64,000 nt of DNA from Kineothrix sp. IPX-CK. GTDB lineage: Bacteria > Bacillota > Clostridia > Lachnospirales > Lachnospiraceae. The translations under genes were made by a program, and so were the position numbers. The notes under the pieces were generated by a model that was not told the DNA's origin, searched no databases, and saw nothing but the letters and a program-made list of their open reading frames with translations. The stretch is taken from assembly GCF_039134705.1 (NCBI RefSeq), contig NZ_CP146256.1, forward strand, positions 4,154,001-4,218,000, read 5' to 3'. Positions within the stretch are counted from its first letter, which is position 1. Every line of letters starts with the position of its first letter. Positions 559-15,732 of this stretch are shown here, piece after piece.

Positions 559-1497
559 TTATCGAAGCAGCTTCTTTTTCTTAAAATATATGAATTCGGC
601 CAAAATAATGACAATACATAGGAGAATCACTGCCGGATATCCATATTTCCAACGAAACTCCGGCATGCCGGGAAAGTTCATCCCATACCATCCTACAAGG
701 AGCGTCAAAGGAAGGAAAAATGCCGTGATAATCGTTAAAATACTCATTACTTTGTTCTGCCTTACGTCTATCTGGGATTGATACAATTCCCTTATCTGAA
801 TCAAATACTCCCTCAGCGCCTCCACATGGTTATGCAGTCTCTCCGTACGATTAGCGTAATTCTGCCACGCCGCGCACTCCTCCCTGCTAAGCTCCTGATT
901 CACATTTGCCTGCATCTGGTCGCCGATGTTTGTAAGCTGTTCATAATAAGAGTGAAAAATTGTCAGCTTTTTGCGGTATTGTATAATCGTCTCATAAAAA
1001 TGATCAGGAATCTTCAAAAGAAGCTCCTCCTCCATATCCGCCAGTTCTTCCTCCAGCCTCTGCAGATAAAGAACATCCTCTTCTATGAGAATTTCAAATA
1101 GAATCAAAAGGATTTGATTTAGCATACAGTTTCCTGGGATATTGGCGGATATCTTTTCCAGCATATCTTCCAGCAAGGACTCCTCCTCAATGAAAAAAAG
1201 CCGTTTCCCTTTTACATAAAAGCCAAATGTAAAGAGGGCTATTTTATCTATCTCTCCCTTAGGAACTTTCATCGTCCCCTGGATGCAATCCCTGAACGTT
1301 TCGATTTTGCAGTATTGAATCTGCTTAAGTCCCTGACTCAGGTTTTTCTTATGGGGATATTCTTCTTCAAGGGAATCAAACTCATTCGATTTCATCAGCC
1401 ATATTTCGTAATATTTCTTCTCCGTCGTTTTCTCGCCGGCTTCACGAGATAAGCTGCCGGTCTCAATATCCACCAAATATTTCACCATATCTTTCAT
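559..1497 (-). CDS. CorA-family divalent cation transporter
   Basis: A 312-residue protein with a long, charged, helix-rich cytoplasmic N-terminus and two C-terminal membrane helices. The signature GMN motif (residues 272-274, in WYGMNFPGMPEF) sits at the end of the first helix, as in CorA channels, and a lysine-rich tail follows the second helix. CorA proteins form pentamers that carry Mg2+, or Co2+/Ni2+/Zn2+ in some subfamilies; the metal cannot be told from this sequence. Length and architecture are those of an intact member. It is probably cotranscribed with the EamA-type gene downstream. Confidence 0.92.
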   Translation of the reverse strand: MKDMVKYLVDIETGSLSREAGEKTTEKKYYEIWLMKSNEFDSLEEEYPHKKNLSQGLKQIQYCKIETFRDCIQGTMKVPKGEIDKIALFTFGFYVKGKRLFFIEEESLLEDMLEKISANIPGNCMLNQILLILFEILIEEDVLYLQRLEEELADMEEELLLKIPDHFYETIIQYRKKLTIFHSYYEQLTNIGDQMQANVNQELSREECAAWQNYANRTERLHNHVEALREYLIQIRELYQSQIDVRQNKVMSILTIITAFFLPLTLLVGWYGMNFPGMPEFRWKYGYPAVILLCIVIILAEFIYFKKKKLLR

Positions 1498-1629
1498 CTC
1501 CTTGTAAACGTTCGGATTTTTTCATCTGCGTTTCTATTATCTATTTGGGAATTATATCACATTACATAAAAACCATGTACTGTTTCTCATGAGTTTGAAA
1601 GCATTTTTGTAAATTGCAATTAAATTAAT

Positions 1630-1676
1630 AAAATAAAATGCCCGAATAGTTTTCTAAGAGAATCCTATTTCAGGCA
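1630..1676 (-). terminator. Rho-independent terminator after the agr-linked genes
   Basis: On the minus strand TGCCTGAAATAG pairs with CTATTCGGGCA around a loop of about 15 nt and is followed by TTTTATTTTA. It lies 27 bp past the stop codon of the hypothetical gene at 1703-2572 and would end the agr-linked transcript. Confidence 0.7.
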
Positions 1677-1702
1677 CTTATTCTTGCTCCGTATTATTAT
1701 AC

Positions 1703-2572
1703 TTAATCCAACCTTCTCCCATAGTAATAATTACTGGGATTTTTTATATTATATATATCTTCTCCATATGGTATATTGAGAGTGTGTGAATCACTCAGTA
1801 CATATTCTTTATCATTTATCGTGAAAACATCTCCCGGCGTATAGCTTGATAGCAAACCTCCGCTACATGTTAATGTGTTATACATTATATCATACCGCTC
1901 TTTTGAATTGATAACTCCGCTTGTCCCATTTGAATAAAATTGTGTCGCTTCTTTTTCACCCATTTTCACAGTAACAAATCCTGGTTTTACACCCGCTTCT
2001 TTTAGATATGTCTTTATCTGTTCATCCGTAAAGCTCAATCCAATGTATACCGGATCCTCACTTATCATATATTTCCAAAATTCAGCATAACGGTTCAAAG
2101 TTTCGTCGTAAGGTTCCCCCCTCAAGTCTTCCGTATTAATAGAAGAGACTCCTCCTAATTGTGAAGTATATAACAGATGCTCCTTGCCATCTGACGAAAT
2201 ATATTTGAAATAATTATTTAAACCAAAATTCATAACATTACCTTCTGCTTTTACTTCTTTCAGATTCGTTCCGTCAATTTTAGGAATTTGTGATGCCGTG
2301 AATTTTATCCCGTCACACTCAAAAATTTCTCCGTACTTTCTTAAACCTCCTATATCCGCATTAATTCTCGCAAATAATTCTTTCGAAATATACTTATTTT
2401 TTGAAATAGATGTATATGTTCCTGCAGATATTGTACTACTCCTAACAAATAAATCCTTCCTTTTTCCAGTCGTTCTGCTTTTACTTTCCAGCAGCATTTC
2501 CGCCAATGTTTTATCGTTCTTGTTCTCGTATAGTAACTGAAGAATCTTAAAGGCCGAACCATTAATATTCAT
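1703..2572 (-). CDS. Hypothetical protein downstream of the agr locus
   Basis: I do not recognise a family. The chosen ATG at 2572 has GAGG seven bases upstream and gives 289 residues; the frame stays open upstream to a TTG at 2665, just after a GGAGG, so a 320-residue form is possible. The protein is soluble, with no signal peptide or membrane helix. Its N-terminus is basic and Ser/Thr-rich and the C-terminal half is acidic and aromatic, ending in an Asn/Tyr-rich tail (NPSNYYYGRRLD). It is the last gene before a terminator in the run agrB-agrD-PPC protein-this gene, so it may belong to the regulated output of the quorum system, although a separate promoter cannot be excluded. Confidence 0.6.
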   Translation of the reverse strand: MNINGSAFKILQLLYENKNDKTLAEMLLESKSRTTGKRKDLFVRSSTISAGTYTSISKNKYISKELFARINADIGGLRKYGEIFECDGIKFTASQIPKIDGTNLKEVKAEGNVMNFGLNNYFKYISSDGKEHLLYTSQLGGVSSINTEDLRGEPYDETLNRYAEFWKYMISEDPVYIGLSFTDEQIKTYLKEAGVKPGFVTVKMGEKEATQFYSNGTSGVINSKERYDIMYNTLTCSGGLLSSYTPGDVFTINDKEYVLSDSHTLNIPYGEDIYNIKNPSNYYYGRRLD

Positions 2573-2713
2573 ATTTTTACCTCGCAATGTTTTATATAAT
2601 ATTTGTTTAACTTTATTATTTTGAAGGTGCATGTCCAACTCTAAGCTTTGAACACACACCTCCAATTAAATTAAAGAATACTACAAATCAACTTACATTC
2701 TGAATTATTAAGA

Positions 2714-3565
2714 TTAACGTGACACTGTTATATCATCTGCATATACCGATGTCATGGGATAAGCATAATAAATATTAAATTTAGGTGTAAACGTCGCATT
2801 TTTATAATATTTAAAAGTAATATCCCATCTGCTCTTGACAGGCAAGTTGAGGGAAGCTAATCCATCCTTTTGCCATGAATATTTTGTTAAATTAATTGTG
2901 CTATTTTGGTTCTTTACTGAGATATCGCTTACACTATTGGTCCCCACACTGCTTAATGAAACAAGATATGCAACTGCTCCATCCGGAATGCCCGATACCG
3001 TATTTAAATCAATCGGATATACAGTATCTGTCCTATCCATGGTTATACTGCTCATATTTACTTTACAACTTGCAACTGTGTAAGTAGGCCCCCCTACTAA
3101 TAAAGTATAAGAACTGGTTGTTGTAGATGAATTGGCATTAACTTTCACATAATAATATCCTGCTGTTGTGACCGTAAAGGGATAGGCCGTCGAACCAAAT
3201 GAACTTCCATACGAATATTCTTGGCGTTTAATAAGAACATTGCTCGAATTGTATACTTCGAAATCAAATCCTTTCCCATTGCAAGTAACATATTGCGTTC
3301 CGGAAGTCAAGTAAACTTTATACCAATCTATGTCCGTTTTAAGTAAATTGCCATTCACTATATATTGATTCGGTCTGTTTCCCGTCACCGCTTGTGCTGC
3401 AGTCTCCGAATTGGCTAGAATTAATTGTGCTGTTTCCATTGTATCATTTGGTTCTATCTCATTTACGGATTGCGCGTGGGCTGTCATTCCTGATAACAAT
3501 ATTACACAGCAAAATACAAATCCCAGCATTAATATTTTTAAAGTTCTTCTTTCTTCTACTACCAT
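2714..3565 (-). CDS. Secreted protein with bacterial pre-peptidase C-terminal (PPC) domain
   Basis: 283 residues. A classic signal peptide covers about residues 1-31 (basic start, hydrophobic core, cleavage near AHA-QS). The next 125 residues begin NEIEPNDTMETAQ and include DIDWYKV and AGYYYVKV, the conserved pattern of PPC domains, which are beta-sandwich modules found beside secreted peptidases and other exported proteins. The last ~115 residues are another beta-rich module that I do not recognise. No catalytic domain is visible. The start is set by AAGGAGG eight bases upstream of ATG 3565. The gene begins 22 bp after the agrD stop, so it is probably cotranscribed with agrBD and may be an output of the quorum system. 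Confidence 0.8.
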   Translation of the reverse strand: MVVEERRTLKILMLGFVFCCVILLSGMTAHAQSVNEIEPNDTMETAQLILANSETAAQAVTGNRPNQYIVNGNLLKTDIDWYKVYLTSGTQYVTCNGKGFDFEVYNSSNVLIKRQEYSYGSSFGSTAYPFTVTTAGYYYVKVNANSSTTTSSYTLLVGGPTYTVASCKVNMSSITMDRTDTVYPIDLNTVSGIPDGAVAYLVSLSSVGTNSVSDISVKNQNSTINLTKYSWQKDGLASLNLPVKSRWDITFKYYKNATFTPKFNIYYAYPMTSVYADDITVSR

Positions 3566-3587
3566 GTAAATTCCTCCTTAAGTAAAT

Positions 3588-3731
3588 TTAATTATTTTTA
3601 TGTGGTCTTTGGGGCTGGTGTAAAAACCCCATACAAACTGGCGGTTTTTGTTTTGACTCTTTTTCCATCTCAGTTCTAGCCGCTTTTTCCAGAACTTTTA
3701 ATAAGAACTCTTTCTTACTATTACTTTTCAC
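3588..3731 (-). CDS. agrD: AgrD-like cyclic lactone autoinducer precursor peptide (47 aa)
   Basis: A small open frame starting at GTG 3731 and overlapping the agrB stop by four bases (GTGA), a normal translational-coupling arrangement. It has three parts as in AgrD: an amphipathic, Lys/Glu-rich N-terminal helix (residues 3-25), a short core with one cysteine (Cys33), and a C-terminal tail. The core and tail read CMGFLHQPQRP, which fits the clostridial pattern of Cys, four residues, then an aromatic or His followed by a QP/EP-x-x-P recognition sequence. By analogy with clostridial AgrD, AgrB would cut after Leu37 and close a thiolactone ring over CMGFL. This ring is inferred. Confidence 0.88.
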   Translation of the reverse strand: MKSNSKKEFLLKVLEKAARTEMEKESKQKPPVCMGFLHQPQRPHKNN

Positions 3732-4315
3732 TCTCTCACCTCCTGTTTACATATTTTTGCAGCTATTAATAAAATTGCACATAGCATTACTCCTAATGTG
3801 GCAAATATTATGCAATCTTTATGAACACCCAAAACGGTAAAAGAAATAATAGATATACACTGTAAAAAGATCATTGCCCTTGATGCCTTTTTTGTTTCTT
3901 CCAGCTCTGTTTTTGACCAATTAATATTTGGATGATTTACAGCTCCAATCGTAAAAATAAATACTAATGAAAAAAATAAAATGGGAAATATATAGTTTAT
4001 ATTTTTATTTAGCCATGGATATAACCACTTCGCAAACATTACATAAATACCAACCGTTCCTATAAAACATTTTAAGTATGTATTTAAGTGATAACCTCCC
4101 GTACGACTTCTTAATCCACAAAAAAATACTAAAAATATCAAAGTAGGTATTAGTAAATCGAGATATACTGATATTATTAAAATTGAAATATATATAATTA
4201 ATTTTTCAAAAAACACTTCTAGAGCATAAAAATATTCTTGTTTCATTTTTCTTTCTATAATATTATTATTTATCAATTGTTCAACCAAAGTATTTATTAT
4301 AAATTTCATTCTCAC
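3728..4315 (-). CDS. agrB: AgrB-like peptide-processing membrane endopeptidase
   Basis: 195 residues with four to six hydrophobic helices. The conserved catalytic region RTGGYHLNTYLKC is present, with His76 and Cys83 in the expected seven-residue spacing. AgrB proteins are membrane cysteine endopeptidases that cut the C-terminal tail from AgrD and form its thiolactone ring. The best start is GTG 4315 (AGAGG five bases upstream); an ATG two codons later is also possible. It overlaps agrD by four bases and lies 81 bp after the kinase gene. Cys and His match the family, so it should be active. Confidence 0.93.
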   Translation of the reverse strand: MRMKFIINTLVEQLINNNIIERKMKQEYFYALEVFFEKLIIYISILIISVYLDLLIPTLIFLVFFCGLRSRTGGYHLNTYLKCFIGTVGIYVMFAKWLYPWLNKNINYIFPILFFSLVFIFTIGAVNHPNINWSKTELEETKKASRAMIFLQCISIISFTVLGVHKDCIIFATLGVMLCAILLIAAKICKQEVRE

Positions 4316-4396
4316 TTATTCCTCTTTATTGACATTATATTACTCCCCCATCTTACTTCCAATACATATTGCAGTTTTGGACTTTTTGCGACATTT

Positions 4397-5734
4397 TTAG
4401 CTTTCATTTGGCTTTTTATTCGGAATTATAATCGTGAAATTAAAATAGTTTTCAAATTGCTTTATGATATATGAGCCATTATATTTTTCTATTGTATCCG
4501 CTATATTTTCTATACCTACCCCGTGCTCTATAGCATTATCTTTGCTTGTCTGATATTTACCATTTATAAATTCAACCTCTTTATGCATCGTATTCTTTAC
4601 AGCAATTATAGTATAATCTCCTTCATCTACAAATTTTAACTTTATTATTTTTTCGTTTTTGATCTCTTCATTCGCTTCTATGGCATTGTTTAATAAATTA
4701 GATAAAATTGTCACTATATCTTCACTTTCTATAACGATGTGCGACAAATCATTTACCTTTAAGACAAATATAATTCCTTTTTCAACTGCCTCCTGATATT
4801 TAGAATTTAAAATAGCATTAACAATCGTATTATTGGTATCTATTGCATCCAATTCCTTTTTCAGCCCGCCTGTAATATTTGAAACATATTCCAGCACTTC
4901 TTTTATTTTATTGTCTATCAATAAACCTTCAATACATCCTATCTGATTTTTATATTCATGGGTTCTCTTTCTTTGCTTATCAAAATTATCACATACAAGT
5001 TTATACATATCTAATTGATTTCTATTTCTCTCTTCAATGATGTATTTTTCTTGTAATCTCACTTCTCTCTCCACGATATCTCTAATCAAGTAAAGAACCA
5101 ATATATTCATTCCCACAAGACCGAATCCAATAATCAGCATGGTATTTATGACTTCAGGGCTCCTTACATGCTCTAAATTAAAAGCAATGGATATTAGGGC
5201 AATTAACGTTATAACAGGAAAATAAAGAAACCTAAGCCATTCACTATCGGATAACAAATTTAACGAGTCCTTCTTATTCCACAGCTTTCTTACTATTAAG
5301 ACAAAGCCAAATAATAACATCTTGCAGATAAGCGCTACTATCATACTGCCTGCCACTCCAAACAGAACGTTTTTCGTTTGTTCCCCCCATAAGTATTTCA
5401 AAGCTATCAACCCCACACAGTCTATTCCTAATAATAAACCTTGAAATATCGCCGTTATTATAACTCCCCGCAGAAAATCTGACTTAAAATAAACAAGCAT
5501 AATAAATGCCATTGAAAAAAATACAAAAATTTGTTTTAGAAGAATATTACTCGCTAATAACGCTGTCCCAAGATAAATAATTAAAACTAAGATTGGTATC
5601 AAGATCCATCCATACCATTTGTCTTGAAATTTTCTTTTATCAAAAAAAGATTCAAAAAATATTTTGCAACAAATAACTTCAATTAATATGAGAATGAGTC
5701 CTTGAAATATGTTCATAATTATCGGCATGGTCAT
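4397..5734 (-). CDS. agrC: AgrC-like sensor histidine kinase (GHKL/HPK10 type)
   Basis: 445 residues. The first ~220 form six or seven membrane helices, the usual peptide-sensing module of AgrC/ComD kinases. A linker helix leads to the phosphoacceptor His259 in RTHEYKNQ. The GHKL ATPase domain follows, with N-box LLNNAIEA (residues 347-354) and glycine box HGVGIENI (from residue 404). This kinase class lacks canonical DHp features. The start codon overlaps the response-regulator stop (ATGA), so the two are coupled. It is the likely receptor for the AgrD-derived peptide encoded just downstream. Confidence 0.92.
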   Translation of the reverse strand: MTMPIIMNIFQGLILILIEVICCKIFFESFFDKRKFQDKWYGWILIPILVLIIYLGTALLASNILLKQIFVFFSMAFIMLVYFKSDFLRGVIITAIFQGLLLGIDCVGLIALKYLWGEQTKNVLFGVAGSMIVALICKMLLFGFVLIVRKLWNKKDSLNLLSDSEWLRFLYFPVITLIALISIAFNLEHVRSPEVINTMLIIGFGLVGMNILVLYLIRDIVEREVRLQEKYIIEERNRNQLDMYKLVCDNFDKQRKRTHEYKNQIGCIEGLLIDNKIKEVLEYVSNITGGLKKELDAIDTNNTIVNAILNSKYQEAVEKGIIFVLKVNDLSHIVIESEDIVTILSNLLNNAIEANEEIKNEKIIKLKFVDEGDYTIIAVKNTMHKEVEFINGKYQTSKDNAIEHGVGIENIADTIEKYNGSYIIKQFENYFNFTIIIPNKKPNES

Positions 5735-6456
5735 ATATCCCCTTTGTACTCAATAAAGGTTTCTTTTATCAGCTTATATTTAGCTTTTGATATTGGTAGA
5801 TTGAGACCATTACTAAGAAAAACTTTATGATTGTTTACTTCACAAATTTGCTTAATATTAACAAGGAAACTTTTATGTATTCTTATAAATCCATACTGTT
5901 TTAATATTTCTTCTACTGTATCCAATTTATTATATAGACTATAAGTCACCAATTCATTATCCATTACGCAAAACTCTAGTTTGTGTAATTTACTTTCTAC
6001 ATACAAAATCATGCTAACATCCAAATATCTCTCGCCTTCAAGAAATGAAAATCGTTCTTTAACAACTTTATAATCCATTTTTACTAATATTGTGTTTATA
6101 CATTCTTCCAAAGATTTCTCAAAATTATCTTTTTCCTTTAGTAGATACCTTACTGCATCTACCTTATAACCTTCTATCGCATAAGAAATAAATGCTGTAA
6201 TAAATACGATAAAAGCGTTGTTTGAGTACAACCTAATCTGCTGCGCCGTTTCTATTCCATCCATATCATTCATGTTTATATCCAAAAATATTATGTGGTA
6301 TTTAGACATTTCAATTCCTAACTTTATTAATTCCTGACCAGTACGGTATAAGTCTATTTCGTATTCCAATTCTTTACTGTGCAGATAGCGTCCTACTTTT
6401 CTCTCTATGTATTCACGATAATATTTTTCATCATCACAAATTGCTATTTTAATCAT
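5731..6456 (-). CDS. agrA: AgrA-like response regulator (REC + LytTR)
   Basis: 241 residues: a receiver domain (about 1-125) with acidic pocket DD at 8-9 and phosphoacceptor Asp59 (FLDINM), then a LytTR DNA-binding domain (about 135-238; FIRIHKSFLVNIKQI is characteristic). LytTR regulators bind pairs of 9-bp sites upstream of target promoters. First gene of the agr cluster and coupled to the kinase by a 4-base overlap. The order regulator-kinase-B-D differs from staphylococcal agr (BDCA). The upstream region holds one good LytTR-like half-site (6529-6537), hinting at autoregulation. Confidence 0.93.
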   Translation of the reverse strand: MIKIAICDDEKYYREYIERKVGRYLHSKELEYEIDLYRTGQELIKLGIEMSKYHIIFLDINMNDMDGIETAQQIRLYSNNAFIVFITAFISYAIEGYKVDAVRYLLKEKDNFEKSLEECINTILVKMDYKVVKERFSFLEGERYLDVSMILYVESKLHKLEFCVMDNELVTYSLYNKLDTVEEILKQYGFIRIHKSFLVNIKQICEVNNHKVFLSNGLNLPISKAKYKLIKETFIEYKGDI

Positions 6457-6528
6457 AAAATTTCACTCCCCTTTTTCATTACTCTTCACAATATATATAT
6501 TTGTTATTTCGGCATAAAGGCACTATAT

Positions 6529-6537
6529 CTTAACTGT
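6529..6537 (-). promoter_or_regulatory. Candidate LytTR (AgrA-type) half-site upstream of the agr regulator
   Basis: The minus strand reads ACAGTTAAG, a full match to the published AgrA half-site pattern [TA][AC][CA]GTTN[AG][TG]. It lies 73 bp upstream of the regulator start. No second half-site sits at the usual 12-13 bp spacing; weaker matches occur at 6591-6600. A single short match in AT-rich DNA is weak evidence. Confidence 0.3.
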
Positions 6538-6660
6538 ATAAGCCTCTCTGCCCCGTTCGTTTCATTCCACTGAAATATTTGTCATAATATCAACGTTTAA
6601 ACAAATATTGTTTACCAATCCACTTCTCCTGCATAACCTAATAATAAAAAAGGTGTTTTT

Positions 6661-7158
6661 ATGTATCAATTTACTCCTCGTCTAACATTCGTAAACATAT
6701 TAGAAAAAAATAAACCCCGCGCTATGGCATGGGTTACGGGAAACAGCTCCAACCCGCAGCTCAGCGGGTTGGTTAAATTTTATGATACTCCTTATGGGGG
6801 CGTTCTCATAGAAGCGGAGATTTTCGGCCTTCCTAATATATCCACACAGGATTCCTCGGATTTCTATGCGATGCACATCCATGAATTCGGCGACTGCTCC
6901 AACTCCTTCGCCAATACCGGAGGACATTATAATCCGGCGAACCTGCCTCATCCCCAGCACGCAGGAGACCTTCTCCCTCTTCTGGGCAATCAGGGTTACG
7001 CCTGGGTTTCCTTCTATGACAAACGCTTTACTGTAGATAACATCATCGGCAAATCCGTAGTCATCCATGCAAATCGCGATGATTTTACCACTCAGCCCGC
7101 CGGAGATTCCGGAGAGAAGATAGGCTGCGGTGTTATCCGCATAGAGAGCGGGAGGTAG
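6661..7158 (+). CDS. Cu/Zn superoxide dismutase family protein
   Basis: 165 residues with the complete SodC ligand set: His72 and His74 (MHIHEFGDC), His89 (GGHYNP), His97, His100 and Asp103 (HPQHAGDL), His136 (VIHANRDDF), plus a likely disulfide between Cys79 and Cys156 and the C-terminal AGDSGEKIGCGVI block. It should convert superoxide to oxygen and hydrogen peroxide. There is no signal peptide, whereas most bacterial SodC proteins are exported, so the predicted product is cytoplasmic. It is divergent from the agr cluster and convergent with the polyamine operon. RBS AAGGTG lies before the ATG. Confidence 0.9.
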   Translation: MYQFTPRLTFVNILEKNKPRAMAWVTGNSSNPQLSGLVKFYDTPYGGVLIEAEIFGLPNISTQDSSDFYAMHIHEFGDCSNSFANTGGHYNPANLPHPQHAGDLLPLLGNQGYAWVSFYDKRFTVDNIIGKSVVIHANRDDFTTQPAGDSGEKIGCGVIRIESGR

Positions 7159-7179
7159 CTACAGCCGTTACTATTCAGC

Positions 7180-8301
7180 CTACAGCCTCCCCTTAAAATC
7201 CATGTAGCCGAAGCTCCTTATCTGCTCGCATTCGCCGTCCTCCCTCTCCCATACGATGGAGGGAAGGGGCATTCCGTTAAAGGTATTGTTTTTTACCATA
7301 GTATAAATGGCCATATCCTCAAAGGTCAGACGGTCGCCGACCGCTAACGGTTTGTCGAAGGAATAGATTCCTATCACATCTCCCGCCAGGCAGGTCGGCC
7401 CCGCCAGCGTATATGCAAATGCCTTCTCACCCTCCTGTCCGGAAGCTCTAAGGGGCGGGCGGTACGGCATTTCAAGGACATCAGGCATATGACAGGCTGC
7501 AGAAGAATCCAGAATTGCAATCGTTTCCCCATGCAACATATCTTCCACCTCAGTCAGCAGGTGTCCCGCATCCAAAGCAACCGCCTCTCCAGGCTCCAGA
7601 TAGACCGTAACCCCGTAGGTGTCCGACACATAGCGGATGCAGTTTTCCAGAAGCTCTATGTTATAGCCCTCCCGCGTGATATGATGTCCGCCGCCGAAAT
7701 TGATCCATTTCATCCCATATAGCCATGAACCGAATTGCTCCTCTACCGCCTTTAACGTCACTGCAAGAGCATCCGCATTCTGCTCGCACAGCGTATGGAA
7801 ATGAATGCCCTCCACCCATTCAGGAAGTCTGTCGGGGAACTCCTTTGCCAGAACTCCCAAACGTGAACCGGGAGCACAAGGATCGTATATTCCGTGTGCC
7901 TCCTGGGTAGAGCATTCCGGATTCACCCGGATTCCTACGCTTTTTCCTGCCTTTGCCGCCCTTTCACCGTATTTCTCAAGCTGGGAAAAGGAGTTAAATA
8001 CGATATGCCCGCAGTAAGACAATATTTCCTCCATATCCTCTTCCTTGTATGCCGCAGAAAAAATATGGTTTTCCTTTCCCATCTCCTCCGCGCCCAACCG
8101 TGCCTCATATAAGCCGCTTGCCGCCGTTCCGTCCAGATACTTACCGAGCAAAGGATAACAGGAATACATGGAAAAAGCTTTCTGCGCTAATAATATTTTA
8201 CAGCCCGTCCGCTGTCTGACGCCCTGCAATATCTCCAGATTCTTTTTCAAGGCGCTTTCCATCACGATGTAACAAGGCGTTTTCAATTCTTCTCTCTTCA
8301 T
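7180..8301 (-). CDS. nspC: Carboxynorspermidine/carboxyspermidine decarboxylase
   Basis: A PLP enzyme of the alanine racemase-fold decarboxylase family (fold type III). The chosen ATG at 8301 (GGAGTGG upstream) gives 373 residues. The PLP lysine is Lys41 in LLAQKAF; the family motifs SGLYEARLG, GIRVNPE, NFGGGHH and LEPGEAV are all present. It removes the carboxyl group from the carboxypolyamine made by the upstream dehydrogenase, giving spermidine or norspermidine. Last gene of the polyamine operon, 32 bp after the dehydrogenase. The exact substrate (carboxyspermidine or carboxyaminopropylagmatine) cannot be read from sequence. Confidence 0.92.
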   Translation of the reverse strand: MKREELKTPCYIVMESALKKNLEILQGVRQRTGCKILLAQKAFSMYSCYPLLGKYLDGTAASGLYEARLGAEEMGKENHIFSAAYKEEDMEEILSYCGHIVFNSFSQLEKYGERAAKAGKSVGIRVNPECSTQEAHGIYDPCAPGSRLGVLAKEFPDRLPEWVEGIHFHTLCEQNADALAVTLKAVEEQFGSWLYGMKWINFGGGHHITREGYNIELLENCIRYVSDTYGVTVYLEPGEAVALDAGHLLTEVEDMLHGETIAILDSSAACHMPDVLEMPYRPPLRASGQEGEKAFAYTLAGPTCLAGDVIGIYSFDKPLAVGDRLTFEDMAIYTMVKNNTFNGMPLPSIVWEREDGECEQIRSFGYMDFKGRL

Positions 8302-8332
8302 AACCACTCCATTAATTCCAAGTGTACTGTCT

Positions 8333-9535
8333 CTATTCTACCATAACGGGATTCTCGCTCACCTGCCACGGAAGGCCGAATTCATTCAATGCTTCCATGA
8401 ACGGGTCGGGATCGAATTCTTCAATGTTATATACCCCGGCTTTATCCCATGTCTTCGTCATCAGCATCGCCGCCCCAATCATTGCCGGAACACCGGTAGT
8501 ATAAGCAACTGCCTGTGAGCCTACTTCTTTATAGCATTCCTCGTGGTCGCATACGTTGTAAATGTAGATAGTTTTTTCCTTTCCATCTTTCTTGCCCGTA
8601 AAAATGCAGCCGATGTTCGTCTTACCTTTTGTACGGGGACCAAGGGAGGCAGGGTCGGGAAGAACCGCTTTTAAAAACTGCAATGGAACAATTTCTTTTC
8701 CCTCATATATAATCGGCTCTATGGAGGTCATACCTACGTTCTCAAGACACTTCAAATGGGTTAAATAGCTTTGTCCGAAAGTCATGAAGAAACGGATTCT
8801 CTTGATTCCCGGCATATTGAGGGCAAGGGATTCCAACTCCTCATGATGAAGCAGATACATATCCTTCTCTCCCACCTCGGGGAAATTATAAACCCGCTTG
8901 ATTTCCATCGGCTCCGTTTCTACCCACTTCCCGTCTTCCCAATAAGAGCCCTTCGCGGACACTTCGCGGATATTGATTTCAGGATTGAAATTGGTGGCAA
9001 AGGGATAACCGTGATCGCCGCCGTTGCAGTCCAGAATATCTATATAATTAATCTCGTCGAAATAGTGTTTTAAGGCATAAGCGGAGAACACTCCCGTCAC
9101 TCCGGGGTCGAAGCCGCTTCCGAGAAGGGCGGTGATTCCAGCCTTCTCAAAGCGTTCTCTGTAAGCCCACTGCCACTTATACTCAAACTTCGCCGTATCC
9201 TCCGGCTCATAATTAGCCGTATCCACATAATTTGTTTTTGTCGCAAGACACGCATCCATAATGGTGAGGTCCTGATAAGGAAGAGCAAGATTCAGCACCA
9301 CATCAGGTTTCTCCTTTTCAATGAGAGCGATCAGCTCCCGGGTGTTATCCGCATCTACCTGTGCTGTACTAATCTTTGCCTTCGTCATCCCTTCCAATTT
9401 CTTCTTCATTGCCTCGCACTTCGATACCGTACGGCTGGCAATACAGATTTCCGTAAAAACGCCGCTGTTTTGACAACATTTGTGGATCGCCACCCCGGCC
9501 ACGCCTCCGCAGCCAATAATCAATACTTTTCCCAT
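8333..9535 (-). CDS. Carboxynorspermidine synthase-like dehydrogenase (saccharopine dehydrogenase family)
   Basis: 400 residues. An N-terminal Rossmann fold (LIIGCGGVAGVAIHKC) and the saccharopine-dehydrogenase motifs (NLALPYQDLTIMDACL, GSGFDPGVTGVF, CNGGDHGYPFATNFNPEINIRE) identify the CANSDH/CASDH family. These enzymes reductively condense aspartate beta-semialdehyde with a diamine to form a carboxypolyamine. It is placed directly before nspC and after the agmatinase-like gene, which confirms the pathway. RBS GGAGATGATATC precedes ATG 9535. Substrate is probably putrescine, with agmatine as an alternative. Confidence 0.92.
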   Translation of the reverse strand: MGKVLIIGCGGVAGVAIHKCCQNSGVFTEICIASRTVSKCEAMKKKLEGMTKAKISTAQVDADNTRELIALIEKEKPDVVLNLALPYQDLTIMDACLATKTNYVDTANYEPEDTAKFEYKWQWAYRERFEKAGITALLGSGFDPGVTGVFSAYALKHYFDEINYIDILDCNGGDHGYPFATNFNPEINIREVSAKGSYWEDGKWVETEPMEIKRVYNFPEVGEKDMYLLHHEELESLALNMPGIKRIRFFMTFGQSYLTHLKCLENVGMTSIEPIIYEGKEIVPLQFLKAVLPDPASLGPRTKGKTNIGCIFTGKKDGKEKTIYIYNVCDHEECYKEVGSQAVAYTTGVPAMIGAAMLMTKTWDKAGVYNIEEFDPDPFMEALNEFGLPWQVSENPVMVE

Positions 9536-9564
9536 GATATCATCTCCTTTTATTTTATAATCGC

Positions 9565-10419
9565 TCAGGAAAGCGCCAGCAGCAGCTCGCGTACTATCTT
9601 TCCTGCCGTCGCCGTAGACACTCCGCTGGCGTCATACGTGGGACTTAACTCATTCACATCACAGCCTACGATATAACAGCCCTTCGCAGTTTTCAACATC
9701 GCCTTCAGAAGCTCAAGGAAGCTTACGCCTCCCGCCTCGGGCGTTCCCGTTCCCGGAAATACGCAAGGGTCTAAGACATCCAAGTCTATGGTTAAATAAA
9801 CCGGCTTTCCTCTAAGCTTTGTTACCGTCTCTGTGAGATTATCGAAATCGAACCTCCGCATCGTCACATGTCCCTCTTTCGCCCACTCGAATTCCTCTCT
9901 GTCACCGGAGCGGATTCCGAATTGATAGATTCTCCCGTCTCCTAACAGTTCCCAGCTCCTTCTTAACACACAGGCATGGGAGAGCTTTACTCCCAGATAA
10001 TCCTTCCGCAGATCCGCATGAGCGTCAAAATGCACGATATGCAGATCGGGGTATTCACGGACAGCCGCACGCACGCTTCCAAGTGTTACCAGATGCTCGC
10101 CGCCTATCATAAAGGGAATCTTTCCGTCCTTTATAATCGTCTCCGTGCGTTCCTCGATAGCTGCCAGAACTCGCTCCGTATCCCCAATGGGCAGCTCCAG
10201 GTCCCCGCTGTCGAACACCTTGCAATCCTGCAGATCCTTGTTCTGATAAGGGCTGTAGGTCTCCAGTCCATAAGATTCGTTTCGAATCGCCTGAGGACCG
10301 AAGCGGGTCCCCGGCCGATAGGAGGTGGTGGAATCAAAGGGGGCTCCGAACAGTACAATTCTTGCTTCCTCATATTCCGCCTCACAGCCGATATAATTTA
10401 CAATATTTTTATTCAACAT
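9565..10419 (-). CDS. speB: Agmatinase / ureohydrolase family protein
   Basis: 284 residues of the arginase/agmatinase fold. The manganese motifs are present: GGEHLVTLG, HFDAHADLR and TIDLDVLDPCVFPGTGTPE. Agmatinase converts agmatine to putrescine and urea. In this cluster, next to an aminopropyltransferase and a carboxypolyamine route, it could instead or also act on N1-aminopropylagmatine, a known activity of some bacterial homologues. It overlaps the speE gene by 11 bases, which suggests translational coupling. Confidence 0.88.
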   Translation of the reverse strand: MLNKNIVNYIGCEAEYEEARIVLFGAPFDSTTSYRPGTRFGPQAIRNESYGLETYSPYQNKDLQDCKVFDSGDLELPIGDTERVLAAIEERTETIIKDGKIPFMIGGEHLVTLGSVRAAVREYPDLHIVHFDAHADLRKDYLGVKLSHACVLRRSWELLGDGRIYQFGIRSGDREEFEWAKEGHVTMRRFDFDNLTETVTKLRGKPVYLTIDLDVLDPCVFPGTGTPEAGGVSFLELLKAMLKTAKGCYIVGCDVNELSPTYDASGVSTATAGKIVRELLLALS

Positions 10420-11260
10420 CCTTCACCAACTCCTCCACATATGCCGGAAGTGCAAACATTCCCTGATGCAGCCTCGGCAGATAATATCTCGTAGGTATCC
10501 CTTTTAACGTCCAGGTCACTCCGTCCAGATCATTCAGCGGATGGTACTGCTTTGAAGCAAAACCGAACAGCCAATGTCCTGAAGGGTAGGACGGTATATG
10601 CGCCTGATAAATTTTGCTGATGGGAAAGGATTCTATGATCCGTTTGTGCATCCGCTGGCATTGAAAGGCCTCTTCTTTGTAAAAGGGACTTTCATGCTGG
10701 TTGATCATCACTCCGTCGCTATGCAGCGCATTGTAGCAATTCCCATAGAATTCCTTCGTAAAAAGTCCCTCGCCCGGTCCGAAGGGATTAGGCGAATCTA
10801 TAATTATCAGGTCATATACATCCGATTTCGAGCGAACGAACCGCAGACCGTCCTCGTTGAAAATACTTACCCTCGGGTCGTTCATGCTGCAAGCCATCTG
10901 AGGGAAAAATTTGCGGCACACCTCGATCAAAAGAGGATCCGCCTCCACTACATCGATTTGCTGCAGAGCATCGTATTTCACCAGCTCCCTTACGATACCT
11001 CCATCGCCGCCGCCGATGACCAGCACCTTTTCCACATGGGGATGTACCGCCATGGGAACGTGTGTTATCATCTCATGATAGATGAACTCATCTTTTTCTG
11101 TCAGCATAAGGTCGCCGTCCGCCACCAGAATCCTCCCGAACTCCTTGGATTCCAGAACATCGATTCTCTGGAATTCGCTTTGTGCGCTGAAAAGCTGCTG
11201 TTCCACTCGAATCGACAGTTTCACATTATCCGTATGCTCATCCGAAAACCACATTTCCAT
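10409..11260 (-). CDS. speE: Spermidine synthase-like aminopropyltransferase
   Basis: Starting at ATG 11260 (MEMWFSDEHT, the conserved beginning of SpeE proteins) gives 283 residues. The motifs ESKEFGRILVADGD, IGGGDGGIVRE and IIIDSPNPFGPGEG match the family, including the decarboxylated-AdoMet site. It transfers aminopropyl groups to putrescine or, in some homologues, to agmatine. No S-adenosylmethionine decarboxylase (speD) is in the window, so the donor must be made elsewhere or the enzyme has another role. It lies between the decarboxylase and agmatinase genes. Confidence 0.88.
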   Translation of the reverse strand: MEMWFSDEHTDNVKLSIRVEQQLFSAQSEFQRIDVLESKEFGRILVADGDLMLTEKDEFIYHEMITHVPMAVHPHVEKVLVIGGGDGGIVRELVKYDALQQIDVVEADPLLIEVCRKFFPQMACSMNDPRVSIFNEDGLRFVRSKSDVYDLIIIDSPNPFGPGEGLFTKEFYGNCYNALHSDGVMINQHESPFYKEEAFQCQRMHKRIIESFPISKIYQAHIPSYPSGHWLFGFASKQYHPLNDLDGVTWTLKGIPTRYYLPRLHQGMFALPAYVEELVKDVE

Positions 11261-11279
11261 AATAATAACCACGCCTTTC

Positions 11280-12770
11280 TCACACACTTTTCAATACGTT
11301 CAAATATTCAATGTCCGCATCCTCAGGGCCTGTCATAGAACAGCCTTTTTCCTTTGCATACAGTATATATTCTATAATTCCCTTGGTAATCATTTCTCCC
11401 GGAGCCAGAATCGGAATTCCCGGAGGATAGCACATCACGAACTCGCTGCACACTCTGCCCTCCGTGTCTTCGAGAAGGATAGATTCCTTTTGTGCATAAA
11501 AGGATTCCTGCGGTGTAGTTACCACATAGGGATCCATATATTCCTGCGTGAGCATTCCCGCCTTATCCTTCTGATAGCACCGTTTTACCTCCGCCAAAGC
11601 ACTTACCAGACGCTCCACCTCCTGTCTGCGGTCTCCGATGGAAAGATAGGCAAGAATATTTCCGATATCTCCGAATTCAATCTGAATGTCGTACTCATCT
11701 CTTAGTATATCGTATACCTCAATACCGGCCAGGCCTATTTCCAGCGTATGGACAGACAGTTTCGTGCTGTCGAAATCATAGATGCTATTTCCGTTTATCA
11801 ACTCTCTGGAAAACGCATAGTATCCGCCAATCGCATTGATTTCCCCTCTGGCGTAGTCCGCAAGCTCTATGACCTTGGCGAAAGATTCCCGTCCCCTAAG
11901 GGCCAGGTTGCGTCTCGATATGTCCAGGCTCGAAAGCAGCAGATAAGAACCGCTGGTTGTCTGCGTCAGGTTAATAATCTGACGCACATGGCCCTCGTTC
12001 ATATCGGATCCGATCAAAAGCAAAGAGCTTTGTGTCAGGCTTCCTCCCGACTTATGCATGCTCACCGAGGACATATCCGCACCGGCATCCATGGCTGAAA
12101 CCGGCATGTTCTCACCGAAATACAGATGAGTTCCGTGCGCCTCGTCCGCGAGCACTTTCATTCCGTGGTCATGGGCAAGCCTCACGATAGTCCGAAGATC
12201 CGAACATATCCCGTAATAGGTGGGATTGTTCACTAACACTGCCACAGCATCCGGGTGGCTTTTGATCGCTTGTTCCACTTGAGATACCTTCATGCCTAGA
12301 GAAATTCCCAGATTCTTATCCACATCGGGATTCACATAGACAGGTTTGGCACCGCAGAGCACCAGCGCGTTGATCACACTTCTATGTACATTTCTCGGCA
12401 GGATTATTTTATCTCCTTTTTTGCAGCAGGAAAGAACCATTGCCTGCACTGCTGAGGTGGTTCCTCCCACCATAAGAAACGCGTGGCTCGCATGGAATGC
12501 CTCTGCTGCCAGCTCCTCTGCTTCCCTGATAACAGAAACCGGATGACAAAGATTGTCCAGCGGCTTCATGGAATTCACATCTATGCCCACACACTTCTCT
12601 CCCAATAGCTCCACCAGCTCAGGGTTCCCTCTCCCGTGTTTGTGTCCCGGGACATCAAAGGGCACTATTCTCATTCTTCGAAAACGCTTCAGCGCTTCAT
12701 AAATTGGAGCCTCCTCCTGCGACAGTCTCCTTGCGGCGCTGATTTCATCAGCCACAGATGATTTTTCCAT
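11280..12770 (-). CDS. speA: Arginine/lysine/ornithine decarboxylase (fold type I PLP)
   Basis: The chosen start, ATG 12770, follows AGAGGAAATTATT and gives 496 residues; the frame is open 18 codons further up. It has the Orn/Lys/Arg decarboxylase architecture: FDVPGHKHGRG, an aminotransferase-fold core with ADEAHGTH and the PLP lysine in SMHKSGGSLTQSS, and the C-terminal domain (YPPGIPILAPGE). In Clostridia with a neighbouring agmatinase this enzyme usually acts as arginine decarboxylase giving agmatine; lysine decarboxylation is the alternative. First gene of the five-gene polyamine operon, downstream of an intrinsic terminator and putative structured RNA. Confidence 0.9.
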   Translation of the reverse strand: MEKSSVADEISAARRLSQEEAPIYEALKRFRRMRIVPFDVPGHKHGRGNPELVELLGEKCVGIDVNSMKPLDNLCHPVSVIREAEELAAEAFHASHAFLMVGGTTSAVQAMVLSCCKKGDKIILPRNVHRSVINALVLCGAKPVYVNPDVDKNLGISLGMKVSQVEQAIKSHPDAVAVLVNNPTYYGICSDLRTIVRLAHDHGMKVLADEAHGTHLYFGENMPVSAMDAGADMSSVSMHKSGGSLTQSSLLLIGSDMNEGHVRQIINLTQTTSGSYLLLSSLDISRRNLALRGRESFAKVIELADYARGEINAIGGYYAFSRELINGNSIYDFDSTKLSVHTLEIGLAGIEVYDILRDEYDIQIEFGDIGNILAYLSIGDRRQEVERLVSALAEVKRCYQKDKAGMLTQEYMDPYVVTTPQESFYAQKESILLEDTEGRVCSEFVMCYPPGIPILAPGEMITKGIIEYILYAKEKGCSMTGPEDADIEYLNVLKSV

Positions 12771-12871
12771 AATAATTTCCTCTCTCTTCACTTTCAGCCA
12801 ATGCATTCCCTTTAAAGCATGCACAGCCCTCTGGGAGGGCCTTTATCTTATAGGACGTACTTTTTTATAAG

Positions 12872-12910
12872 ATAAAAAAGGTAGGAATGCATATACATCA
12901 TTCCTACCTT
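12872..12910 (-). terminator. Intrinsic terminator upstream of the polyamine operon
   Basis: A perfect 12-bp stem on the minus strand (AAGGTAGGAATG with CATTCCTACCTT, 9-nt loop) runs directly into TTTTTTATC. It ends the transcript at 12911-13385 about 100 bp before the speA start. It could close an independent small RNA gene or act as an attenuator for speA. Confidence 0.85.
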
Positions 12911-13145
12911 GCGTTTTTCTGTTCGCTATCAAAGTCTTCCGTCCCGCCATCCTTTTCTTTAAAGTTCTTCACCTAAACCGCCAAACCGCCCGTTCTGCCG
13001 GAGGGTCATGGTAACTTCTTTCAATCGGGATAACCGAATTCGACGCATTTGAGGGTGCTCAGTCTAACAGGGTTCACTACCCCTATTCCTATGCCCGCTC
13101 TTTGACAAACCGCATCGCAATTCGTTTGTTAAGGACAGAAAAATC
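12911..13145 (-). ncRNA. Probable structured non-coding RNA or leader of unknown class
   Basis: No open frame, higher G+C than the flanks, and a strong terminator at its 3' end. On the minus strand the first bases TTCTGTCC can pair with GGACGGAA near the 3' end (8 bp, one G-U); TCAAAG can pair with CTTTGA just inside or outside this stem. Local hairpins include ACAAAC/GTTTGT (from 13130), AGGG/CCCT (about 13070) and TCGG/CCGA (about 13030). I compared it by eye with tmRNA, RNase P RNA, SRP RNA, lysine, guanidine and T-box consensus features and it does not match. It could be a 6S-like or raiA-like RNA, or a speA leader. Confidence 0.5.
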
Positions 13146-13281
13146 ATTTTATTATTCAGCACTACAGATATTCAGGTTCTCGAGTCTATATAGCAAATAT
13201 TTCACTTTTAATACTCTTATTGACCGTTTCACAAGTTGATGTGTCGTATACACACTGGTTAAATGGTTATAAGTAACCAAC

Positions 13282-13344
13282 TTATAAAATTTGAGCTCCT
13301 AACTCAATCAATAATGCAGCCTTAGCTGCCATAAATATTTGCAT
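13282..13344 (-). CDS. Possible 20-residue leader peptide
   Basis: ATG 13344 is preceded by GGAG at proper spacing (GGAGTTTCC) and encodes MQIFMAAKAALLIELGAQIL, a short, mostly hydrophobic peptide. It lies about 45 nt after a good promoter and upstream of the structured RNA region. It could be a leader peptide, a tiny membrane peptide, or chance: a frame of 21 codons alone carries little weight. The region from 13145 to 13281 holds no other frame that I can support. Confidence 0.28.
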   Translation of the reverse strand: MQIFMAAKAALLIELGAQIL

Positions 13345-13387
13345 GGAAACTCCAACCTTACATATATCTGCATTCCATACGCGTTTT

Positions 13388-13416
13388 ATTATACTTTTAG
13401 TTTTTCATAATTGCAA
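13388..13416 (-). promoter_or_regulatory. Sigma-A type promoter for the transcript upstream of speA
   Basis: TTGCAA (13411-13416), 17-bp spacer, TATAAT (13388-13393) on the minus strand. Transcription would start near 13381 and run about 510 nt to the terminator at 12872, or further into the polyamine operon if the terminator is bypassed. Confidence 0.65.
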
Positions 13417-13464
13417 GCATTTTTTTCAGAGCGCTTAAATAGGCCTTACTCGAAGAGTTTTTCA

Positions 13465-14001
13465 TTAAATAAAGCATTCATTCACCAGACCCTGAGATAA
13501 GCTTTCGTAGAAATCCGCTATATGCCTGCCGTCTATCAGGGCATGATGAGCCAGTACACTTACCGGAAGCATAAGCCTGCCTTCCTCCTCCAATCCCCCG
13601 CTTGCAAGTACCTTTTCCTGATTCCCGGAAGTTTCTTCCACGAACCGCTCGAAGCTAAGGGTCGGGTCGGCCTCGCAGTAAGCATAGGTACCATCTGCTT
13701 TCATTACCGTATGGGAAGTCCTGCAGAACTCATATTCCACGATACCATCCCCGTCAATGCGCTGACGGAATTCTTTTACTTAATTCGCCGCATTTCCCGC
13801 TGCATAAGGCAGATATAGAAAAGAAGAATGCCCTCTCTCCCTGGCCTTGCCTACAGCCTGCGTAATATCCACATTAGACGTCAAACCCACGTATGGATAG
13901 CCCATGGCAAGAAAAAAATCAAAATGTGCTTTTCTCGGATATGTCTTCATATCCACCTTTTGTATATACATAGCTTTCTCCTGCCAGAAATTCATTTTCA
14001 C
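13465..14001 (-). pseudogene. Chloramphenicol acetyltransferase (CatA-like) pseudogene
   Basis: Two open segments in the same reading frame, 13780-14001 and 13465-13740 (extended upstream to 13777), are separated by a single TAA at 13780-13782. The first carries the CAT N-terminus (YPRKAHFDFFLAMGYPYVGL, SNVDIT); the second resumes with VKEFRQRIDG, includes HTVMKADGTYAYCE, and ends with the catalytic HHALIDG motif. The family has Glu where the stop lies (AAN-E), so a one-base GAA to TAA change is likely. In addition about 35 residues are missing between the ETSGNQEKV and GRLMLPVSV segments. With both lesions the gene is almost certainly inactive, although the active-site His is kept. Confidence 0.85.
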
Positions 14002-14048
14002 GGCTGCTCTTCCCTGACATAGATACGGATAGAATCGCTCATCCGCTT

Positions 14049-15224
14049 TTACAGCATCAGACGGTAAATAGCTGCAACATCTTTCTCCTCCAGCTTGGCA
14101 AAGCCTCCGATAACACCATTCCGGCCATCACCATGGCAGGCAGTATGAGCCATTTTCTCTATGTCCTCTTCCTTGGCTCCAAGTCCTGCAAAATCAGAGG
14201 GCATTCCTATGGAGGTCCAGAATCGTCTAAGCGCTGCGATTCCAGCCTTCGCCGTATTTTCCGGATTCATAAAATCCATTTCGCAGCCCCATACACGAAC
14301 TGCGAGCTGGGCAAAACGGTTTATGTCGTGTTTCATATTATACTGCATCCATGCCGGAAATACCACTGCCAATCCCGCTCCATGCGCACAGTCATAAATT
14401 GCAGAAAGCTCATGCTCGATGTCGTGGCTCGCCCAGTCCTGTACTCTTCCTACTCCGCAGGAATTATTGTGAGCCATCATTCCTGCCCACATGATGTTAG
14501 CCTGCGCCTGATAATTGCCTGGGTCTTCTATTACACGGGGCGCTTCCTTGATTACGGTCAGAAGCAGGCCCTCTATCATCCTATCGGTTACTTCGACCTC
14601 AGTGGTGGTGGTGAAATAACGCTCAAATAAGTGTGCCATTATATCCGTAATTCCACAAGCAATCTGAAAGGGCGGAAGAGTCTGTGTCAGAGCAGGGTTT
14701 AAAATAGAAAATGCCGGACGGAAAGCCTCTCCCGTAGCGCCGCGCTTATACATTCCATCCTCGTTGGTAATAACGGAATCCGGCGACCCTTCACTTCCTG
14801 CTGCGGATATCGTGAGTATGGTTCCTATAGGAAGCGCCTTTGTCACTAACTTCCCTTGGTAGAAATCCCAGAAATCTCCTTCATAGACAGCACCGGCAGC
14901 TATGGCCTTGGAAGAATCGATGGTGCTCCCGCCGCCTATCGCAAGGACGAAGTCCACGTTTTCTTTCCTGCACAGCTCAATGCCTTCATAAACAAGACCG
15001 CTTCTGGGATTCGGCTTAACGCCGTCCAGTTCCACGAATTCTATTCCATCTGTCTCCAGGGAAAGCTTTACTCTGTCCAGAAGGCCGGAGCAGATTACGG
15101 AACCGCCGCCGTAGTGAATCAGGACCTTTTTACCGCCGAAGCGTTTTATATAGTGTCCCGTTCTCGTTTCTTCCTCTTTGCCGAAAACAAAATAGGTGGG
15201 ACTGTAGAATTTAAAATTTTCCAT
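14049..15224 (-). CDS. Iron-containing alcohol dehydrogenase (butanol dehydrogenase-like)
   Basis: 391 residues, full length for the Fe-ADH family. The N-terminus FKFYSPTYFVFG and the cofactor region IHYGGGSVICSGLLDRV with GGGSTIDSSKA are typical of the YugJ/BdhA subgroup, which prefers NADPH. Metal ligands come from DIMAHLFERYF and from the two histidine motifs in WASHDIEHELSAIYDCAHGAGL. It would interconvert aldehydes or ketones and alcohols during fermentation; the substrate is not predictable. It sits 47 bp upstream of the decayed CAT gene. Confidence 0.92.
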   Translation of the reverse strand: MENFKFYSPTYFVFGKEEETRTGHYIKRFGGKKVLIHYGGGSVICSGLLDRVKLSLETDGIEFVELDGVKPNPRSGLVYEGIELCRKENVDFVLAIGGGSTIDSSKAIAAGAVYEGDFWDFYQGKLVTKALPIGTILTISAAGSEGSPDSVITNEDGMYKRGATGEAFRPAFSILNPALTQTLPPFQIACGITDIMAHLFERYFTTTTEVEVTDRMIEGLLLTVIKEAPRVIEDPGNYQAQANIMWAGMMAHNNSCGVGRVQDWASHDIEHELSAIYDCAHGAGLAVVFPAWMQYNMKHDINRFAQLAVRVWGCEMDFMNPENTAKAGIAALRRFWTSIGMPSDFAGLGAKEEDIEKMAHTACHGDGRNGVIGGFAKLEEKDVAAIYRLML

Positions 15225-15288
15225 TGGGTTCTCCTTCCATTGGTGGGTACGCCTTTGCTTTTTACTTCTGCATTATCGAATGCTTCGT

Positions 15289-15732
15289 CTATTTTGCGGC
15301 GGACTTCATAATGATGTCCAGGCAAACGTCTCCCGCAGGAGTAGCGATACAGCAGGTGGTATAACCGTCTCTGCTCTCCGCTCTGCGTGATACCGGCGGC
15401 AATATATCACATTTCACGTCTTTCTGGGCAAACATAGTGAGTACGTTGCCGCTGATTATGTTCGCTATTTCGGAAATAGCTGAGATTACGAACTCATCCA
15501 CAGTATCCATTTCCAGTCCGCTCATGATATTTACCATACCGAGAGAGGTGGTTCGCGGGAAACGATAAATGACCTCTCCCTCCATTTCTCCTATAATCCC
15601 GATGGAAATATCCAAACCGTCCTCATCCACATGTTTCTCCGGAGAAAGCTCATCGATGTCAGTGATGTCCAGCATTAGCTGGAACACATTGCGGGTGGCC
15701 TCCAAAAAGGGTCTGTAAAGATTATCTGTCAT
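15289..15732 (-). CDS. CheX-like chemotaxis phosphatase
   Basis: 147 residues with the CheX/CheC-type fold. The key ExxN phosphatase motif is present once (SEIANIISGN), followed by the AxxxF-type strands and the second half, ending CLDIIMKSA, as in CheX. CheX dephosphorylates CheY-P to end a chemotactic signal. The start overlaps the end of the hemerythrin gene by 11 bases, so the two are translated together. No other che genes are adjacent, but a chemoreceptor is encoded at 53370. Confidence 0.82.
   Translation of the reverse strand: MTDNLYRPFLEATRNVFQLMLDITDIDELSPEKHVDEDGLDISIGIIGEMEGEVIYRFPRTTSLGMVNIMSGLEMDTVDEFVISAISEIANIISGNVLTMFAQKDVKCDILPPVSRRAESRDGYTTCCIATPAGDVCLDIIMKSAAK

Follow-up and report, generated by a model that had tools for sequence, protein, structure and literature searches.

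The small gene at positions 3588–3731 of the window (the whole 64,000-nucleotide stretch of DNA analyzed here) very probably makes a ring-shaped quorum-sensing signal peptide. We hold with high confidence the full explanation that it is the agrD of a complete agr cassette, that AgrB would convert its product to a CMGFL thiolactone, that AgrC and AgrA would exert control over genes including a neighboring pair encoding proteins of 283 and 320 residues, and that AgrB and AgrD recognize each other through changed charges. Judged by its tree and alignments, the cassette belongs to a distinct, widespread agr variant in which precursor and AgrB differ together, and the neighboring genes for secreted proteins may be under its control. 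The kind of AgrD is already known, peptides of this group being annotated as cyclic lactone autoinducers.

The agrD frame runs on the minus strand from a GTG at 3731 to a stop ending at 3588, and its 47 codons encode the peptide VKSNSKKEFLLKVLEKAARTEMEKESKQKPPVCMGFLHQPQRPHKNN. As the preliminary description of this DNA had read from the letters, the frame overlaps agrB by four bases (GTGA, 3728–3731), and its product has a single cysteine (residue 33) within a CMGFLHQPQRP core. An AGGAGG 7 bases 5′ of the GTG, in the context caggaggtgagaga directly before the start codon, forms a good ribosome-binding site, and frame 1 of the plus strand is interrupted by stops across 3588–3731. The amphipathic helix described for the leader agrees with a best 11-residue hydrophobic moment of 0.78 (means of 0.73 in the 19 clade AgrDs and 0.59 in the 28 comparison AgrDs introduced below). 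Of the checks proposed for the peptide, the searches of family models and of a sequence collection each returned a match. NCBIfam TIGR04223 (AgrD) aligned to residues 10–43 at 19.2 bits, a narrow pass 0.2 bits above the cut-off of 19, and a Pfam search of the peptide gave no AgrD match. Searching the protein collection with the single 47-residue sequence yielded P0001 as the one relative. It is 89% identical over the 47 residues, and its five changes (three in the leader, one directly before Cys and the fifth close to the C terminus) leave PP and CMGFLHQPQRP unchanged. Across all six frames of the window there is a single C-4-[HY]QPxRP, and 60 windows shuffled in blocks of two bases, a rough control, contain none. 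A chance frame was rejected on the TIGR04223 match, the invariant positions in the relatives' alignment and the absence of the motif from shuffled windows, and the sequence evidence supports reading the frame as AgrD.

Table 1. Positions of the agr genes and neighboring features in the window.
Feature	Position	Strand	Basis or remark
AT-rich island: agr cassette and two downstream genes	1491..6613		Missing at the corresponding site of G014, the closest genus-mate
320-residue protein, no known family	1703..2665	-	Start codon either TTG 2665 or an ATG further in (uncertain)
283-residue protein, signal-peptide-like start	2714..3565	-	22 bp after agrD; N-terminal beta-sandwich predicted, like clostridial PPC/collagen-binding domains
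agrD, 47-residue autoinducer precursor	3588..3731	-	Leader 1–29, PPV 30–32, predicted ring CMGFL 33–37, tail HQPQRPHKNN 38–47
Ring codons C33–L37 (TGT ATG GGG TTT TTA), predicted	3621..3635	-	Ring assignment inferred from the alignment
agrB, membrane peptidase	3728..4315	-	PF04647, E 3.4e-32; RSRTGGYHLNTYLKC with H76 and C83
agrC, sensor kinase	4397..5734	-	GHKL domain PF14501, 5.4e-23; H-box-like RKRTHEYKNQIG
agrA, response regulator	5731..6456	-	Receiver PF00072 and LytTR DNA-binding PF04397
Candidate AgrA half-site ACAGTTAAG, upstream of agrA	6529..6537	-	Other match AACGTTGAT, 60 bases away; no chance level computed

All four agr components are present on one strand in the order agrA-agrC-agrB-agrD, and the H76/C83 pair of AgrB is spaced seven residues apart, as expected of agr AgrB proteins. 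Upstream of agrA, the AgrA/LytTR half-site pattern gave two matches and no pair at a spacing of 20–23. AgrA direct repeats were absent from the window at ≥16/18, and at 17/18 appeared at L078 alone among the loci scanned. Two further AgrBs are encoded in the same genome, L035 and L036, at 1.539 Mb and 3.608 Mb; one of the two has an ordinary AgrD (ring CTWIF, tail HQPEFPEAANKFKKVQ), and beside L036, the third AgrB of the genome, no convincing AgrD frame was found.

Since the single-sequence AgrD search gave P0001 only, relatives were sought through AgrB. The AgrB query matched at E ≤ 1e-10 in 19 of 195 genomes (its own included); the 15 genus-mates yielded no close AgrB, the best having an E of 6.6e-13 at 28% identity. 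With a profile of six AgrBs run against 397 family genomes, 22 matches scored at least 156 bits, in 21 genomes, followed among the matches listed by a gap to ≤121 bits; the six profile-building AgrBs are counted among the 22. When 68 AgrBs were placed in a tree, 44 comparison AgrBs fell on one side of a branch supported at 99/99 and 24 clade rows on the other; these rows had been labelled beforehand by profile score and comprise the 22 profile matches, a second copy from G224 (121 bits) and a sequence from G059 (104 bits). The clade is present in at least 22 of the 397 family genomes (24 rows from 22 genomes). Every one of the 24 AgrBs has His and Cys seven apart, and the order agrA-agrC-agrB, with genes identified from position, size and start, holds at 22 of 24 loci; the exceptions are G224 C36, cut by a contig end, and G484, which reads B-A-C.

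The preliminary description had also turned on whether relatives that keep agrB keep the frame. This was found in large part: an AgrD lies just downstream of 22 of the 24 clade AgrBs (21 with Cys and one, in G059, with Ser), and none recognizable adjoins the clade AgrBs of G302 and G484. In the former of these two loci (L076 and L083), agrB is immediately followed by a 712-residue frame whose start we take to be NTPase-like. The distant G059 member (L085) has a Ser where the ring Cys would be (WPGSPYIFYQPKRP), for which a lactone is predicted instead of a thiolactone.

Wider relatives of the precursor required a profile of the AgrD alignment, which matched 1155 protein clusters at E ≤ 0.01. 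In the best 120 of these 1155, PP stands two residues before Cys in 119 (LP in one), His precedes QP in 118, and the tail reads QPKRP in 119 and QPQRP in one, P0001. Among these 120 there are 39 distinct rings, most of the form C-x-G-[IF]-x; eight relatives bear the NCBI name cyclic lactone autoinducer peptide and most are nameless. The names that relatives do carry point to the Lachnospiraceae as the probable family of the bacterium. The window's own AgrD, with KPPVC and QPQRP, departs from the WPPxC and QPKRP usual in the clade. Its CMGFL core, suggested earlier to be possibly new, is not, for it recurs in a genome of another genus, G390, which carries QWPPYCMGFLYQPKRPSNR. Among the 21 compared, G390 is also the most identical to the window in the AgrC sensor part (40%) and AgrB (40%), by a small margin over the next (39%); measured along the AgrB tree, the shortest path leads to G089 (ring CITIT) and the next to G390.

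The precursor alignment (20 clade AgrDs plus P0001) has no gaps from Cys to QP and exactly four residues between Cys and [HY]QPxRP in all 21 sequences. C33, Q39, P40, R42 and P43 never vary among these and P31 hardly does; the Cys-to-tail spacing is likewise constant in the best 120 of the 1155 profile relatives. Cyclic pentapeptides are reported from related organisms, namely the CVGIW autoinducer of L. plantarum (PMC12405376) and, in C. thermocellum, a cyclic pentapeptide cut before Tyr (PMC5322536). Because the spacing is constant in 21/21 and such pentapeptides have precedent, the five-residue CMGFL ring of the preliminary description is the best-supported reading, and a CMGFL thiolactone best fits the alignment. 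The sequence directly fixes only the Cys and the tail, which leaves room on paper for a larger or smaller ring such as CMGFLH or CMGF, but the constant spacing in both sets of relatives and the pentapeptide rings described in those two papers make another size very unlikely. The part before Cys is less settled, and we regard as a substantial possibility, although not the favored one, that the mature signal is a tailless CMGFL ring that quickly rearranges to a homodetic cyclopeptide, as reported for the Listeria, L. plantarum and C. perfringens autoinducing peptides. Its C-x-G-[IF]-x pattern is shared with L. plantarum LamD558 CVGIW (PMC12405376), and tailless peptides are reported to rearrange by an S-to-N acyl shift, the Listeria one with a half-life of 1.3 min at pH 7 and 37°C (PMC11297923). 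Conservation of PP in 119 of the best 120 relatives would be unexpected if the pre-Cys part were discarded, although PP could equally be a signal to the leader protease and is absent from 4 of 19 clade AgrDs. A PPx exotail, if retained, would block the rearrangement of CMGFL-type rings. The conserved PP leads to a definite chemical prediction, either a tailed, stable thiolactone or a tailless, rearranging ring.

The maturation steps other than ring size follow from what is known of the family. The amphipathic leader would hold AgrD at the membrane, where AgrB, with H76 and C83, would read the short tail, cut between L37 and H38 and pass the acyl group to C33, so closing the CMGFL thiolactone. 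Another protease would then strip the leader, giving a naked ring or one with a short exotail such as PPV. Once released from the cell, the peptide would bind AgrC at its membrane part, whereupon AgrA would switch on the cassette together with the secreted 283-residue protein and its 320-residue partner. We place the 283-residue protein under AgrA control because its gene begins 22 bp after agrD.

The clade's precursors and AgrBs both differ from the comparison set. AgrDs were divided by a fixed rule (five ring residues plus one before QP/EP), and 19 clade AgrDs (the 21 aligned minus P0001 and the G366 sequence, L044, which is nearly the same as L010) were set against 28 hand-picked from a 56-locus set and others; loci with no recognizable AgrD were omitted from these 28, as were a handful that were unusual or had been missed (L015, L017, L020, L025 and L095), none with QPxRP as printed. 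Arg occupies QPxRP in 19/19 clade AgrDs vs. 0/28, and PP falls within three residues before the ring in 15/19 vs. 0/28. Mean net charge of QPxxPx is 2.5 in the clade vs. −0.4 in the comparison AgrDs (the window value is only 1), whereas whole-tail means differ little (3.5 vs. 2.4, both basic); mean leader hydropathy is −0.65 vs. 0.36. AgrB residues, numbered on the 195-residue frame, were counted in 22 of the 24 clade rows; L075, a duplicate of L074, and L085, as the most distant member, were omitted. A basic residue occupies position 131 in 0/22 vs. 35/44 comparison AgrBs, residue 71 basic in 20/22 vs. 1/44, residue 37 acidic in 21/22 vs. 7/44 and residue 192 acidic in 21/22 vs. 4/44. At residue 127 the acidic residue is lost (acidic fraction 0.05 vs. 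0.64), and residue 187 is basic at a fraction of 1.00 vs. 0.41. Recognition between AgrB and AgrD in the clade probably uses changed charges, with the QPxRP tail on one side and, on the other, a usually basic residue lost at 131 and Glu37, Glu192 and Arg71 gained. We doubt a simple charge swap, because the acid at residue 127 has gone, every clade AgrB counted is basic at 187, and Arg71 adds a positive charge of its own. The contrasts separate two clades, reflecting few evolutionary events, and so their Fisher values are not independent evidence of co-adaptation between AgrB and AgrD.

With the clostridial AgrDs of TIGR04223 ([HY]-[QE]P-x-x-P tail) the window peptide shares the leader, single Cys, five-residue ring, Pro-x-x-Pro and adjacent agrB; Pro-x-x-Pro has been suggested as an AgrB recognition site (PMC8748961). 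It differs from the ordinary clostridial type in the Arg of QPxRP, a shorter tail and PPxC before the ring, and its clade in the more charged leader and the order A-C-B-D. The preliminary description's clostridial AgrD was therefore right as to AgrD and not as to the ordinary type, which was rejected on the tail, the PP and the separate AgrB clade. The S. aureus agrBDCA system comprises the same four kinds of protein in the order B-D-C-A, so the window's A-C-B-D is not of staphylococcal type. Its AgrB also has a His and a Cys seven apart. The S. aureus AgrD is reported to have a charged tail of 14–15 residues whose D33 and E34 are required for cleavage (PMC10196373), whereas the window tail HQPQRPHKNN starts with HQ and has no acidic residue anywhere. 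The ring pattern C-x-G-[ILF]-x is shared with L. plantarum LamD558 (CVGIW) and the predicted CTGLF of L. paraplantarum (PMC12405376). The L. plantarum peptide is reported to be tailless, in contrast to the PPx before Cys in nearly all of the best 120 relatives, and the lamBDCA order is BDCA rather than A-C-B-D. C. thermocellum Clo1313_2818 shares a pentapeptide ring followed by Tyr and a conserved Pro but is described as a serine lactone with no apparent agr operon (PMC5322536).

The cassette and the two genes behind it occupy an AT-rich island. GC content between about 1550 and 6650 is 25–38%, against 41–52% in the surroundings, and the aligned flanks are 5123 bp apart in the window (an island of ~5.1 kb) vs. 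127 bp in G014. The flanking genes encode CorA and a Cu/Zn-SOD and lie about 170 bp apart in G014, whose SOD is the most similar among the genus-mates (92%); DNA outside the island is 84–89% identical between the two. The empty site is that of one genome, G014 alone among the 15 genus-mates having the CorA in question. No bounding repeats were found in the two flank stretches searched, and no target duplication was seen at the island ends. Carriage by phage was not supported (29 pattern stretches in viral contigs, none confirmed), nor was carriage by plasmid, the plasmid collection giving one distant AgrB at 28% identity. About 0.4 kb left of the window start, at 6979–7602 of L038 and with two genes between it and the island, lies a 207-residue frame that we take to resemble a serine recombinase.

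Absence of the island from the same place in G014, and the departure of the window AgrD from the clade consensus (KPP for WPP and QPQRP for QPKRP), could mean that AgrD is decayed or silent and the cassette an accessory acquisition that no longer signals. We consider this most improbable: all four agr frames are open, the AgrB and AgrC motifs are intact, and P0001 retains PP, the core and QPQRP. What a working cassette would regulate is a more evenly balanced question. The 283/320 pair follows agrD on the same strand, with a 22-bp gap, a ribosome-binding site of its own for the 283 gene and no terminator-like site between, and it shares one AT-rich island with the cassette. The same two-gene module (window 1703–3565, a secreted beta-sandwich protein and one of ~300 residues) stands behind agrD here and without agr at L135–L139 in four other genomes, where the 320-residue protein again adjoins the 283-residue one; no agr gene occurs in the fetched stretches of G293, G201 (two copies), G234 and G422. 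There is a fair chance, though short of even, that the pair is an unrelated neighbor and that the cassette regulates genes elsewhere. A likeness of fold does not establish function, and collagen binding is not claimed for the 283-residue protein; its fold matches also take in other proteins with this common fold.

No description of this clade, its motif and its AgrB signature was seen in the accessible portions of the open-licence literature searched. The system offers a signal that can be read from sequence, a well-defined clade and a specificity code open to test, with 1155 precursor clusters in the protein collection. This genome has the clade system beside an ordinary agr, and changed AgrB-AgrD pairing would explain how several AgrD signals are kept apart in a single cell. 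A bolder reading combines these points into an unnamed, widespread agr clade whose charge-rewired recognition would be orthogonal to ordinary agr in the same cells, whose products would be stable PPx-tailed thiolactones, and which would act as a transferable switch before interchangeable secreted or bacteriocin-like cargo, with ring-sharing species (CMGFL: the window and G390) hearing each other. As a whole we think this rather unlikely, the more so since some of the AgrB charge changes misfit a simple swap.

Although gene order is conserved in the clade, the downstream genes differ and include those for secreted proteins and radical-SAM peptide clusters. BLASTP found nothing significant between the window's two downstream genes and those behind the G234 agr; a distant relative of the 283-residue protein is encoded elsewhere in G234. 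A lactococcin-972 assignment considered for the small secreted products of L031, L034 and L084 was dropped, with no supporting Pfam or NCBIfam match. In one Lachnospiraceae strain, cyclic lactone autoinducers have been reported close to antimicrobial clusters (PMC11352710). Radical-SAM enzymes lie close behind the clade agrACBD in L071 (G358, 3058–7169) and L072 (G410, 5304–8199), the former being CcpM by NCBIfam, and beside them are short, Cys-rich, precursor-like frames of 62 and 46 residues with no NCBIfam match. In L082 (G461, 8125–16002), agrD is directly followed by a frame that opens with a signal-peptide-like start and extends for at least 2625 residues, up to the end of the fetched stretch.
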